DNA of 60,000 nucleotides from Thermoleophilia bacterium (GTDB lineage: Bacteria > Actinomycetota > Thermoleophilia > Miltoncostaeales > Miltoncostaeaceae), in assembly GCA_009694365.1 (NCBI GenBank), contig SHVE01000006.1, forward strand, positions 1-60,000. The letters are read 5' to 3'. A program made the translations under genes and the position numbers. The notes beneath the pieces are model-generated. The model was not told the origin of the DNA and did not search any database. It saw nothing but the letters and a program-made list of their open reading frames with translations. This document shows, in pieces, positions 1,453-57,211 of the stretch (position 1 is the stretch's first letter; the number at the start of each line of letters is the position of its first letter).

Positions 1453-1923
1453 ATGAGTGCAGAGCGAATCGGGTTACTCGTGCACCTGCTCGGCGCCTTC
1501 GCGTTTATCGCGGGCGTGGTGGTCGCGGGTGTGGCCTACGAGACCGCACGTCGTCGGCGCGCGGCCATTGAGGTGGCTGCGGTCCTCCGCATGGCTCGGG
1601 TGGGGGCGATGATCGCGGCCGTGGGTGGTGTGGTCCTACTCGTCGCGGGGTTCTGGCTCGCCGGGCACCTAGAGATGTTCCGCACGCGATGGCTCGAACT
1701 CTCCATTCTGGCGTTCTTCCTGTCGTTCGGGTTTGGGGCTGCGGGGGGACGACGTCCGCGCCGGGCCCGGGAGTTGGCGGTGCGCATCGCCGCCGGGGAG
1801 GGGGGAGACCCTGCGGAACTTCGGCAGTTGCTCGACGACCGCCTGTCGCGGCTCGTCAACTGGATCGCCGGACTGCTGGCCCTGCTCGTTATCGTGTTGA
1901 TGGTCGTCCAGCCGGCCTTCTAA
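1453..1923 (+). CDS. DUF2269-like integral membrane protein
   Basis: 156 aa from ATG at 1453. Four hydrophobic segments are visible: about 7-27 (LLVHLLGAFAFIAGVVVAGV), 47-66, 75-95 and 133-153. A cytoplasmic Arg-rich loop (GGRRPRRARELAVRI) lies between the third and fourth. The order LLVHLLGAFAFIAG, an Arg-rich loop and a final helix fits the DUF2269 group of predicted integral membrane proteins, whose role is unknown. In-frame codons upstream of 1453 overlap the divergent neighbour's promoter, so the later ATG was chosen. It converges on holB, whose stop is only 9 bp away. Confidence 0.65.
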   Translation: MSAERIGLLVHLLGAFAFIAGVVVAGVAYETARRRRAAIEVAAVLRMARVGAMIAAVGGVVLLVAGFWLAGHLEMFRTRWLELSILAFFLSFGFGAAGGRRPRRARELAVRIAAGEGGDPAELRQLLDDRLSRLVNWIAGLLALLVIVLMVVQPAF

Positions 1924-3942: not shown

Positions 3943-4872
3943 GTGGCGTCGCACGGGGCAGTCATCGTCACCGGTGGTGCCGGGTTCATCGGCTCCACGC
4001 TGGCGGACGCCCTCGTGGCGGCGGGCCGCGAGGTGCACGTGGTGGACACTCTGGTGACCGGCCACCGCGTAAACGTCCCCGCCGAAGCCACCTTGCACGA
4101 GGTGGACATCCGCGACGCCTCGGGAATGGCGTCGCTGGTCACCGCAACCCAGGCCACGACCATCTTCCACCTGGCCGCGCAGGCCGATGTGCGCCGTGCC
4201 CTCACCGAGCCCGCGTTTGACGCCGACGTCAACATCGGCGGCACGCTGTGCGTTCTGGAGGCCGCTCGGGTGACCTCAGCGCGGGTCGTGCTCGCTGCGA
4301 CGGGCGGGGCGGCCTACGGCGAGCACCCCGGTGTTCCGATCCCCACACCTGAGACGGTCGAGCCGCGCCCGATGTCGCACTACGGCATGAGCAAACTGTC
4401 GGCCGAGGCCTACTGCGCCCTCTACGGCCGCCTCTACGGCGTACCGACGGTCCGGCTGCGGCTCGGCAACGTGTACGGGCCGCGCCAAGACCCGCACGGC
4501 GAAGCCGGAGTGGTCGCCATTTTTTGCGGGCGCATCATCGATGGCGAGCCTCTCCCCGTGTTTGGTGATGGACTCCAGACCCGTGACTACGTGTACGTCA
4601 CCGACGTGGTGGATGCGTTCCTGCGTGCGGAGACCGCCGGAACCGACATGACCCTCAACATCGGATCGGGGCGTGAGGTGTCCGTGCTCGATCTGGCCCG
4701 AATCCTCGGTGGGGGCGACGTTATCCACGCCCCTGCGCGGCACGGAGAACTACAGCGCAGTGCTCTCGATGCATCGCGTGCGCGCGGTGTGCTCGGGTGG
4801 CAACCGGGGGTTGCGGTGGAATGCGGCTTGCCCCTCACCCTTGAGGCGCTTCGCGAGGCGCGTACGGCCTAG
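3943..4872 (+). CDS. NAD-dependent sugar-nucleotide epimerase (extended SDR)
   Basis: 309 aa Rossmann-fold enzyme of the UDP-glucose 4-epimerase type. It has the dinucleotide site VTGGAGFIG near residue 10, an Asp after beta-2 (VVDTL), FHLAAQADVRRA, ATGGAAYGE supplying the catalytic Thr, and the YxxxK pair in SHYGMSKLSAEAY. NVYGPRQDP and RDYVYVTDVV further fit the GalE/Gne group. It would interconvert UDP-hexoses or process another nucleotide sugar for envelope glycans; the substrate is not readable from sequence. The frame is open well upstream, but GTG at 3943 with GAGG seven bases before it places the Rossmann motif correctly. It converges on the PHP protein gene. Confidence 0.85.
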   Translation: MASHGAVIVTGGAGFIGSTLADALVAAGREVHVVDTLVTGHRVNVPAEATLHEVDIRDASGMASLVTATQATTIFHLAAQADVRRALTEPAFDADVNIGGTLCVLEAARVTSARVVLAATGGAAYGEHPGVPIPTPETVEPRPMSHYGMSKLSAEAYCALYGRLYGVPTVRLRLGNVYGPRQDPHGEAGVVAIFCGRIIDGEPLPVFGDGLQTRDYVYVTDVVDAFLRAETAGTDMTLNIGSGREVSVLDLARILGGGDVIHAPARHGELQRSALDASRARGVLGWQPGVAVECGLPLTLEALREARTA

Positions 4873-7786: not shown

Positions 7787-8311
7787 TCACATCGTGATAT
7801 CCCTCGCCTCCGCCGCATGGCGCGCCGCGTTGGCCACATAGCGCGCGGCCTGAGCGGCCAGCCCCGCCCGCTCCTCGTCGGTCAGATCCCGACGCACCGT
7901 TGCCGGGATCCCGATCACGAGCACACCGGCGGGGATCTCCATCCCCTCCGGGACCAGTGCGTGGGCACCCACGATGCACTGATCTCCGATTACGGCGCCG
8001 TTGAGAATCGTGGCACCAATGCCCACCAGCACCTCGTCGCCGATGGTGCATCCATGCACCGTGGCGCGGTGACCGATCGTCACCCGATGGCCCACGGTGC
8101 AGGGGCGGCCCGGGTCGGCATGTATCACCGCACCGTCCTGAACGTTGGTTTCGTCGCCCACCACGATGTGCTCGACATCGCCGCGGATGACCGCCGTCGG
8201 CCACACCGAGGAGCGGCTCCCCAGTGACACCCGTCCGATCACGATCGCGGTTTCGTGGACGAACACCGCCTCGCCCATGGCGGGGCTGTCCCCGCCGAGT
8301 CCCTGGATCAC
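7787..8311 (-). CDS. Gamma-class carbonic anhydrase family protein
   Basis: 174 aa left-handed beta-helix protein with hexapeptide repeats (for example GRVSLGSRSSVWPTAVIRGD, then IVVGDETNVQDGAVIH). The three metal His of gamma-carbonic anhydrases are recognisable in VIHAD and in TIGHRATVHGC. Members hydrate CO2, but many bacterial homologues (YrdA, PaaY) are thioesterases or uncharacterised, so the reaction is not assured. GTG at 8311 has GGGAGG about eight bases upstream. It diverges from the cytochrome c gene at 8422; that gap contains a CGGGGG-TTCG-CCCCCG hairpin (8337-8352). Confidence 0.85.
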   Translation of the reverse strand: MIQGLGGDSPAMGEAVFVHETAIVIGRVSLGSRSSVWPTAVIRGDVEHIVVGDETNVQDGAVIHADPGRPCTVGHRVTIGHRATVHGCTIGDEVLVGIGATILNGAVIGDQCIVGAHALVPEGMEIPAGVLVIGIPATVRRDLTDEERAGLAAQAARYVANAARHAAEARDITM

Positions 8312-8895: not shown

Positions 8896-9140
8896 GGTCC
8901 GCCCATGGGCCGTGGAATCAAGACCGCGAATGGGAACCTCCGCACCGCTCGGCCGATCTCGGGAGAGCGTGTCATCTCCACGCCGGCTGTCTCCACCGCG
9001 TGCGTCACTCATTCGCCGCCGACGGCGACCGGTGATGGACGCGGCGTCACGGGGGTAGCGTGGGCGTTCATGATCGGCGGCGATCCCGACGCCACCGGGA
9101 CGGCTTCCGCCGCCGGCCGACCGCGTTCGGGGGTCTGAGC

Positions 9141-10406
9141 GTGCTGGACATCCGCCTCATCCGGAAGGACCCCGACTTCGTACGTGCGGCTCTGGCGAGG
9201 CGTGGTGATTCGGACGCCCTCGACGAACTCGTGGCCGTTGATGACTGCTGCCGCGGTCTGCGGCGGACGGTGGAGGACATGCGCGCCGAATCCGCCCTCA
9301 TCGCGAAGCGCATCGGTGAGGCGCGAACGGGAGGCGGTAATTCCGACGAGGCGGACGTGACCGAGGCCCGTCGACTGCGCGAGGCGACTACGACCGAGGA
9401 AGGGCGGCTGCGCACCGAGGAAAGTCGTCGTGACGAGCTCCTGCTCGCCCTGCCGAACATCGCGGATCACGCGGCGCCCGACGGTGGTGAGGACGACGCC
9501 GTGGAGGTCCGGGTGGTGGGCGAGATCCCGGTATTCCTCACCGGAGCTCGGGACCATGTCGCCATCGCCGATGGTCTTGGTGGGCTCGACTTGGAGCGGG
9601 CCGCCCGCACCTCAGGTGCGCGGTTCGCGTACATCATGGGTCCGCTCGTGCGCCTACAGATGTCGTTGGTCTCATGGGCGGTGGACCTGCTGGAGGGCGA
9701 GGGGTTCACGCCGGTCATCCCGCCGGTGCTCGTGCGAGAGTCGGCGCTCATTGGGACCGGGTTCTTCCCGAGTGATCGATCGGCGGTGTACGCGACGGCG
9801 GACGACGACCTCTTCCTCGTGGGCACCTCCGAGGTCCCCCTCGCCGCGTTGCATCAGGACGAGATCATTCCCGAGGAGGACCTTCCCCTCCGCTATGCCG
9901 GAATTTCCACGTGCTTCCGTCGCGAGGCGGGCGCGGCCGGGCGCGACACCCGTGGCATCTTCCGCGTGCACCAGTTCGACAAGGTCGAGATGTTCACGTT
10001 CACCACGCCGGAGCAAGCGGCCGATGAACACCTACGCATTCTCGGTATCGAGGAACGGATCCTGCGCGATCTGGGGATCCCCTACCGAGTGGTGGACGTC
10101 GCGGTTGGCGACCTCGGCGCGTCGGCGGCCCGTAAGTTCGACTGTGAGGCGTGGATGCCGGGGCAGGAGCGCTACCGCGAGGTCACCTCATGCTCCAACT
10201 GCACCGACTACCAGGGCCGCCGCCTCAAGTGTCGTACCAAGCGCGGTAAGGACACGGTGACGGTGAACACGCTGAACGGCACGGCGATCGCGGTGGGGCG
10301 CACCCTGATCGCACTGCTCGAGAACCACCAGCGGCCCGATGGGAGCGTGGCGATCCCGGAGTGCCTGCGGCCGTTCGGCGCGCCCGAGGAACTTACGCCC
10401 CGCTAA
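9141..10406 (+). CDS. serS: Seryl-tRNA synthetase
   Basis: 421 aa class II synthetase charging tRNA-Ser. The N-terminal helical arm (about 1-105, VLDIRLIRKDPDFVRAALARRG onward) is the coiled coil that grips the long variable arm of tRNA-Ser. Motif 2 appears in CFRREAGAAGRDTRGIFRVHQF, TSEVPLAALH is the serine-binding TxE region, and motif 3 is NGTAIAVGRTLIALLENHQ. GTG at 9141 matches the family start (LDIRLIR). The open frame upstream shows no family similarity. Two tRNA-Ser genes lie 2.2 kb downstream. The 245 bp between the cytochrome gene and serS show nothing else clear. Confidence 0.96.
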   Translation: MLDIRLIRKDPDFVRAALARRGDSDALDELVAVDDCCRGLRRTVEDMRAESALIAKRIGEARTGGGNSDEADVTEARRLREATTTEEGRLRTEESRRDELLLALPNIADHAAPDGGEDDAVEVRVVGEIPVFLTGARDHVAIADGLGGLDLERAARTSGARFAYIMGPLVRLQMSLVSWAVDLLEGEGFTPVIPPVLVRESALIGTGFFPSDRSAVYATADDDLFLVGTSEVPLAALHQDEIIPEEDLPLRYAGISTCFRREAGAAGRDTRGIFRVHQFDKVEMFTFTTPEQAADEHLRILGIEERILRDLGIPYRVVDVAVGDLGASAARKFDCEAWMPGQERYREVTSCSNCTDYQGRRLKCRTKRGKDTVTVNTLNGTAIAVGRTLIALLENHQRPDGSVAIPECLRPFGAPEELTPR

Positions 10407-11640: not shown

Positions 11641-12402
11641 CTACCGCGAGACGATGTAGGTGAGGTTGATCTCCCGGCCCGTCGTCGAGCCATCGCCAAG
11701 CCATCCCTCCATCACCGCGACGAGGGTCACTCCGCTCTCGCACAGGCGCTCCTCCACCACCGCGCGCGGCACCCCGGTCATCCTGATGGGGTCGAGTCCG
11801 AGGCGCTCATACAGAACCCGGGCGGGTACCCCGAGGCGCCGGAGAAGCCCGTATGCGCGCCGGCGCCACTGAACGCGTTGCCGGAGCGGCAGGGACGCCG
11901 GGATCTGGATGACCAGAGCCCCGCCTGGGGCGAGGATCCGAGCCATCTCCGCCACGTACGACAGAATTACGGCACGTCGCGGGAGATGCTGGAGCACGAT
12001 GAACGACAGCACGAGATCAAACGCGCCGTCGGGGAATGCACCCAGATTCCCCGTTGTGTCCACATGCCACTGGCACCCCGGTCGATCGGCATTTATCTGC
12101 ACCGCACGCTCGATCATGGTCGCGCTGATGTCCACCCCGACCGCCTCATCGAACCGCGTGGAGAGCGCCCGTGTCATGCGTCCGACGCCGCAGCCCAACT
12201 CGAAGGATGCGTGGCGGGAGTGGGGGAGACCGAACTCATCACACACCTCCACCACCCGCGCGACGTCCGCTTCGCCCGTGGCGAGAAACCGCGTGAGATC
12301 CCACTCGCCATGCTTTGCGTCGTCGGCGCTGAGGATGGCCCACAGCGGATCCATCTCGCCGAGGGCCTCCCAATCATCCCGGTGCCGGGCAAGGTCATCC
12401 AC
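11641..12402 (-). CDS. SAM-dependent class I methyltransferase
   Basis: 253 aa. Motif I is FELGCGVGRMTRAL, followed by VGVDISATMIERA (acidic loop binding the SAM ribose), a DLVLSFIVLQHLP motif and LAPGGALVIQIP (motif post III). This is the usual Rossmann methyltransferase of the methyltransf_11 type. The N-terminal 60 residues contain DDWEALGEMDPLWAILSADDAKHGEWD, a start often seen in actinobacterial methyltransferases beside glycan or natural-product genes. The substrate is unknown. It is transcribed into the flavin monooxygenase gene 10 bp downstream. Its upstream side carries the tRNA-Ser fragment and hairpin array. Confidence 0.82.
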   Translation of the reverse strand: MDDLARHRDDWEALGEMDPLWAILSADDAKHGEWDLTRFLATGEADVARVVEVCDEFGLPHSRHASFELGCGVGRMTRALSTRFDEAVGVDISATMIERAVQINADRPGCQWHVDTTGNLGAFPDGAFDLVLSFIVLQHLPRRAVILSYVAEMARILAPGGALVIQIPASLPLRQRVQWRRRAYGLLRRLGVPARVLYERLGLDPIRMTGVPRAVVEERLCESGVTLVAVMEGWLGDGSTTGREINLTYIVSR

Positions 12403-12432: not shown

Positions 12433-12480
12433 GGAGGGGGTGGGATATGAACCCCTGATGCCCCCTACGACGGATAACGG
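12433..12480 (-). pseudogene. Truncated copy of the tRNA-Ser 3' end
   Basis: These 48 bases align without gaps to 12629-12676, the 3' half of the intact tRNA-Ser(UGA), with 39 of 48 identical. The copy covers the 3' acceptor strand, T-arm, variable arm and the 3' side of the anticodon stem, then similarity stops. The T-loop reads TTCATAT instead of TTCAAAT, and two T-stem pairs are broken, so it is not functional. A short direct repeat of a tRNA 3' end is the usual scar of tRNA-targeted integration. Confidence 0.75.
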
Positions 12481-12482
12481 GA

Positions 12483-12624
12483 CCCCCGGTGCCGGACATC
12501 TAACATTTGTTTCGTGTCAGTCACCGGGGGCAACGACGCCACCTATGGCATGTCGGTCCCGTGACGTCACCGACATGACCGCCCCCCACGGGATCCCGCC
12601 ATCAGAGGGGGATCCCGTGGGGGG
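12483..12624. repeat. Array of three hairpins
   Basis: Three perfect inverted repeats in a row. First, CCCCCGGTG (12483-12491) with CACCGGGGG (12522-12530); inside, a 3x3 internal loop and a GACA/TGTC stem. Second, CATGTCGGT (12549-12557) with ACCGACATG (12569-12577), enclosing the palindrome GTGACGTCAC. Third, a 16-bp arm 12582-12597 with its exact complement 12609-12624 and an 11-nt loop. The third begins three bases past the tRNA-Ser(UGA) 3' end on the minus strand and may terminate it. The other two are unexplained. Confidence 0.8.
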
Positions 12625-12627
12625 GAG

Positions 12628-12716
12628 CGGAGGGGGTGGGATTTGAACCCACGGTCCGCCTTACGACAGACAACGGTTTTCAAGACCGTCGCATTCGACC
12701 GCTCTGCCACCCCTCC
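12628..12716 (-). tRNA. tRNA-Ser (UGA)
   Basis: Acceptor stem GGAGGGG/CCCCTCC, long class II variable arm, anticodon loop CTTGAAA (anticodon TGA), T-arm GGGTTCAAATCCC, discriminator G (a SerRS identity base). 89 nt, CCA not encoded. Divergent from tRNA-Ser(GCU), 44 bp away. Confidence 0.96.
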
Positions 12717-12760
12717 GGGCGGGACGATACCCGTACGAGGAAGCGACTACGATCCCGCGC

Positions 12761-12850
12761 GGAGAGGTGCCTGAGTGGTCGAAAGGGGCCGCCTGCTAAG
12801 CGGTTAACCGGGGTCAACCCGGTTCGAGGGTTCAAATCCCTTCCTCTCCG
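12761..12850 (+). tRNA. tRNA-Ser (GCU)
   Basis: Acceptor stem GGAGAGG/CCTCTCC, D-arm TGGTCGAAAGGGG, anticodon loop CTGCTAA (anticodon GCT), long variable arm, T-arm GGGTTCAAATCCC, discriminator G. 90 nt, CCA not encoded. Confidence 0.96.
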
Positions 12851-12854
12851 TCTT

Positions 12855-57140: not shown

Positions 57141-57211
57141 ACATCATCCGGCAGGATGATGTTGGCCCACACGGTGTCAGACACCGGAACGCCACACGGT
57201 GTCTGACACCG
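57141..57211. repeat. Cluster of perfect inverted repeats
   Basis: A 9-bp hairpin ACATCATCC/GGATGATGT (57141-57149, 57154-57162) is followed by two 15-bp near-palindromes, CGGTGTCAGACACCG (57172-57186) and CGGTGTCTGACACCG (57197-57211). These two are also exact reverse complements of each other. The four GGTGTC half-sites lie 129 to 199 bp upstream of the aminotransferase ATG. It may be an operator, a REP-like element or a terminator. Confidence 0.75.

Follow-up and report, generated by a model that had tools for sequence, protein, structure and literature searches.

A degenerate copy of the 3′ half of tRNA-Ser(UGA) lies close to the intact gene in a 60,000-nucleotide stretch of a Thermoleophilia bacterium (contig SHVE01000006.1; hereafter the window), and its presence raises the question of which process duplicated only this part of a tRNA. 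A sequence-only reading of the locus had treated the two repeats and the DNA between them, ascribed to three perfect inverted repeats, as one composite, with integration sites (attL/attR), single-strand transposon ends, a minimal or MITE-like mobile element and a structured RNA among its candidate explanations. To place the arrangement in context we compared it with the remainder of its own genome and with 19 congener genomes, all of them available as fragmented assemblies.

A Degenerate tRNA-Ser(UGA) 3′ Half Lies Downstream of the Intact Gene

The 48-bp direct repeat first noted from the letters is real: 12433-12480 and 12629-12676 are identical at 39 of 48 positions with a start-to-start distance of 196 bp, far above chance, the best scores of this 48-mer against twenty Markov-random sequences of 60 kb being 25-28/48. 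In a survey of 32 own tRNAs the next-best 3′-half copies reach 32/48 (tRNA-Met) and 28/48, and the other tRNA-Ser genes considered as a source both fall below UGA and were rejected (CGA, 34/48; GGA, 28/48). Read along the minus strand, the tRNA is followed by a hairpin at 12624-12582, a second at 12577-12549, a third at 12530-12483, the fragment at 12480-12433 and the DNA upstream of a methyltransferase gene whose start is at 12402 (Table 1). The fragment starts within the anticodon stem (tRNA position 41), and with both its variable and its T stem broken it is not part of a functional tRNA. An exact-pattern search returned no viral contig with either 3′ half.

The variable stem further differs between the two copies by a matched pair, which in the numbering of the 48-mer is G6/C23 in the intact gene and A6/T23 in the fragment, the latter state being common to tRNA-Ser(CGA) of three other genera. 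Such a paired change is unlikely to arise by simple decay of today's tRNA and points either to different sources for the two halves, as expected from integration, or to an alteration of the intact gene after duplication.

Table 1. Features of the tRNA-Ser(UGA) locus in the window, and tRNA 3′-end repeats in congeners
Feature	Position	Strand	Basis
Methyltransferase gene, conserved flank marker; its upstream region contains the fragment	11641..12402	-	Pfam PF08241
Degenerate tRNA-Ser 3′-half copy (tRNA positions 41-88), probably a displaced att fragment	12433..12480	-	39/48 identical
Two-armed REPIN-like palindrome of a dispersed family	12480..12531	.	Copies elsewhere in genome
Imperfect hairpin with 9-bp outer arms CATGTCGGT/ACCGACATG, single copy	12549..12577	.	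Inverted-repeat analysis
GC-rich hairpin adjoining the tRNA-Ser 3′ end, perfect 16-bp arms, probable terminator	12582..12624	-	Fold energy, congener position
Intact tRNA-Ser(UGA) gene	12627..12716	-	ARAGORN; Rfam RF00005, 61.7 bits
Divergent tRNA-Ser(GCU) gene, conserved neighbor	12760..12852	+	ARAGORN; same order in congeners
tRNA-Thr gene 3′ half and perfect copy	L203 (G019:C55) 617-668, 1836-1887		
Three tRNA-Thr(CGU) 3′ fragments, ~4 kb apart	L241 (G012:C86) 142-195, 4034-4087, 8058-8111		
Two tRNA-Asp(GUC) 3′ fragments, 4.9 kb apart	L240 (G012:C76) 4188-4259, 9118-9189		

The Three Hairpins of the Interval Are Separate Things

Only one of the inverted repeats described as perfect proves to be so, namely that beside the tRNA, whose 16-bp arms (12582-12597 and 12609-12624) pair throughout; the other two are 78% (12483-12505/12508-12530) and 86% complementary (12549-12562/12564-12577), each with outer arms perfect over 9 bp. 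The three are moreover separate things, a probable terminator, a dispersed palindrome and a single-copy hairpin, and the composite is not one element; the proposal that all three together make up single-strand transposon ends finds no support.

The hairpin adjoining the tRNA is probably the ordinary terminator of tRNA-Ser(UGA). The 60 nt downstream of the gene have a minimum free energy of -44.0 kcal/mol vs. a median of -20.9 for 32 own tRNAs, among whose downstream regions this stretch is one of the most stable. GC-rich hairpins also stand just 3′ of tRNA-Ser(UGA) in the inspected congeners, each of unrelated sequence, and this conservation of position and structure but not of sequence fits a terminator. 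As a terminator consensus scan detected no U tract after the 12582-12624 stem, we infer termination by the hairpin only. For the middle hairpin (12549-12577) no similar copy turned up elsewhere in the genome; a 19-bp match to it in congeners falls inside a short-chain-dehydrogenase-like gene and was set aside as probably due to chance.

The palindrome farthest from the tRNA, whose outer arm directly adjoins the fragment on its inner side (tRNA position 40/41), belongs to a dispersed palindromic family with inverted doublets, the pattern by which REPIN and REP elements are recognized, and since the genome holds no Y1 transposase (the cognate RAYT) we call the family REPIN-like only. Copies are found in the same genome at G000:C3:26004 and at C1:38335, the latter a near-perfect version (GACCCTCGGTGTCTGACACTTAACATTTGTTAAGTGTCAGACACCGAGGGTC), with a half copy at C14:188. 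The core motif GGTGYCNGACAC gives 160/170 matches in this genome vs. 35/42 for a reversed control pattern, and the exact odd palindrome GGTGTCWGACACC is abundant in the species and nearly absent from the genus, with 22 copies here, none in 18 of the 19 congeners and two in the remaining one (G018). In a distant genome, G048, GGTGTCWGACACC occurs 32 times and the core motif flanks a Y1 transposase gene on both sides. Within the window GGTGTCWGACACC also has a copy at 57173-57210, and some copies of the wider motif extend into TTAACAATT.

Congeners Carry the Same Locus without the Fragment

The methyltransferase gene, tRNA-Ser(UGA) and tRNA-Ser(GCU) stand together without the fragment in four congeners (G005, G008, G011 and G014). 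The best spliced alignment to G011 omits 12434-12584, which keeps the terminator hairpin beside the intact tRNA and leaves none after the fragment; in the other congeners the position of the splice is less sharp. Given the missing fragment and the G011 splice, the most likely interpretation of these alignments is that ~150 bp, fragment included, were gained in this lineage, and the tRNA-Ser fragment is species-specific. In two further congeners, G018 and G019, the stretch separating tRNA-Ser from the methyltransferase gene is longer by some 0.8-1 kb, and no tRNA-Ser fragment was found in it; in G019 a pentapeptide-repeat-like gene lies there (L203 14240-15130), and the gap is thus variable in the genus.

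tRNA 3′ Fragments Elsewhere in the Genome and Genus

In a scan for 3′-half copies within 400-500 bp of 49 tRNA entries from the window's genome (a few of them repeated) and 71 from congeners, tRNA-Ser and, less strongly, tRNA-Met(CAU) stood out as the two outliers, each in the window's own genome, with upstream and reverse-strand controls at background level. The decayed tRNA-Met copy, which spans the anticodon to the 3′ end some 167-203 bp downstream of its gene (G000:C5:97723-97796, L169), has a local score of 20 against a null of 9.5 ± 1.5 and overlaps a thioesterase-like reading frame at its upstream end; taken alone, this case is weak.

Far better preserved duplications are present in the congeners (Table 1). 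In G019 a perfect 52-bp copy of tRNA-Thr(CGU), from tRNA position 27 to the 3′ end plus 4 nt, lies 1219 bp away from its counterpart with one small lipoprotein-like reading frame in between, and the pair looks like a fresh 1.2-kb insertion. In G012 the units between tRNA-Thr fragments carry, judging from translations, multicopper-oxidase-like, pentapeptide-repeat and lipoprotein-like reading frames, with no integrase match on that contig, and the tRNA-Asp fragments are each followed by a hairpin of their own and shortly preceded by a truncated integrase. All of these fresh fragments run from the anticodon arm or loop (positions 27-34) to the 3′ end. We also observe that beside the XerC/XerD-like pair most congeners encode a tyrosine recombinase of ~200 aa (e.g., G019:C63:3589-4059 and G014:C7:8232-8699), which was not found in the window's genome. 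One could imagine that tRNA genes of this lineage serve as loading sites for short, integrase-free cassettes bounded by anticodon-to-3′-end fragments and mobilized in trans by an enzyme such as this recombinase, with the window holding the smallest relic, but we regard this scheme as unlikely.

Origin of the Fragment

In light of these results we consider it probable that an island integrated into tRNA-Ser(UGA), displaced its 3′ end to 12433-12480 and has since been nearly all deleted. The earlier attL/attR idea is thus the best supported of those put forward, if the repeats are taken to mark an old scar rather than a minimal mobile element. The duplicated part is a 3′-end fragment of the same tRNA, running from the anticodon arm, downstream and in the same orientation, which is the signature by which Islander recognizes tRNA-gene islands (PMC4383910); it is absent from relatives with the same neighbor genes and conserved flanks, it has fresh equivalents in the genus and a weaker parallel at tRNA-Met in its own genome, and it comes with no 5′-half remnant, all of which support a scar, as does the A6/T23 pair. 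Several observations count against it: a displaced native 3′ end should have kept its native terminator, and in the best G011 splice none follows the fragment; the fragment starts later than the fresh ones of the congeners; and no integrase or island gene lies within the 196 bp, the 150 bp between the repeats being devoid of genes, and the only two PF00589 genes in the genome form an adjacent pair resembling XerC/XerD; we therefore do not file the locus as an intact island, for which an integrase would be needed, as it is not for a scar.

From this we infer an integration event, a recombinase, a lost island and the following order. A mobile island would have integrated into the 3′ half of tRNA-Ser(UGA), its own 3′ half completing the present tRNA and the old one being pushed downstream. 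Later deletions would then have taken nearly all of the island while the displaced fragment decayed, the REPIN-like palindrome ending up against the fragment's inner end and the tRNA-adjacent hairpin presumably acting as terminator of tRNA-Ser.

A possible though clearly less probable origin is tandem duplication of the whole tRNA-Ser(UGA) gene, with the second copy cut at position 40/41 by the REPIN-like palindrome and its 5′ half subsequently lost. It would account for the coincidence of the fragment's end with the start of the palindrome's outer arm, for the absence of an integrase from the interval and for the best G011 splice, in which the terminator stays beside the intact gene, the outcome expected of a tandem copy. 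The missing 5′ half is, however, untraceable beyond the palindrome in 12531-12582 (p = 0.72), and a full-length pseudo-tRNA spanning the palindrome was rejected on the same absence of 5′-half signal. Moreover, among ~120 tRNA entries only two have a clear fragment within 400-500 bp, in each case a 3′ half that starts at the anticodon arm, and both belong to this one genome; the genus also harbors genuine tRNA-directed fragment arrays. These points speak against tandem duplication.

It is very unlikely that the interval is transcribed together with the tRNA as a structured RNA, or that it acts as a conserved leader regulating the methyltransferase gene. Its minus strand does fold more stably than its shuffles (z = -4.9), but this stability is due to the three separable hairpins; the interval is missing from congeners, and no Rfam family comes near its gathering score there, so that the proposed single RNA of all three hairpins is unsupported and the candidate, having neither Rfam match nor orthologues, was dropped. 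Least credible of all, despite its terminal direct repeats and internal inverted repeats, is the whole 200-bp unit as a MITE-like or minimal mobile element: MITEs occur in multiple copies with shared ends, whereas a search of the genome and the 19 congeners shows the unit once in the former and never in the latter, with only its 52-bp palindrome recurring, and a single composite mobile element likewise lacks a second copy.

Implications and Relation to Known Systems

The probable integration scar adds one modest case to a known process, and for the window itself its consequence is small. It does illustrate that the attachment scar of an island can remain legible after far-reaching erosion, at a size under the 2-kb limit of island finders, and it suggests tRNA-directed gene insertions in small-genome Thermoleophilia. 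The fragment-bounded arrays of the congeners merit more attention than the scar in the window.

Islands in tRNA genes have been mapped by Islander from an intact tDNA and a displaced 3′ fragment, downstream, in the same orientation and often starting at the anticodon (PMC4383910). The locus in the window shares the downstream position, the orientation and a start near the anticodon, but differs from those islands (>2 kb) in its 196-bp spacing, the absence of an integrase and the degeneracy of its fragment, and would not pass the length and integrase filters of Islander. Integration also yields the partial tRNA copies, probably including that of the window, that van der Gulik et al. (2023, PMC9897764) expect to be pervasive among prokaryotes, although their archaeal examples still hold 9-23 kb of inserted DNA and the window does not. 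The palindrome against the fragment likewise has known counterparts in the REPINs and REP elements associated with RAYT transposases (PMC3116915, PMC3733652), with which it shares an inverted doublet of a dispersed, hairpin-forming palindrome; it differs in having no recognized GTAG or CGTC tag and in residing in a genome without a Y1 transposase.

Arrays of RNA-gene 3′-end repeats are known from the ssrA islands of Dehalococcoides (PMC3146451), which use a serine recombinase, and from an additive island with tRNA-Lys end repeats in freshwater Methylophilaceae (PMC10872708). Compared with such arrays the window has a single eroded fragment only. The tRNA-Thr and tRNA-Asp arrays of G012 resemble them in that several 3′-end repeats delimit successive insertions; their Dehalococcoides and Methylophilaceae counterparts have shorter repeats (20 bp) and carry other genes.
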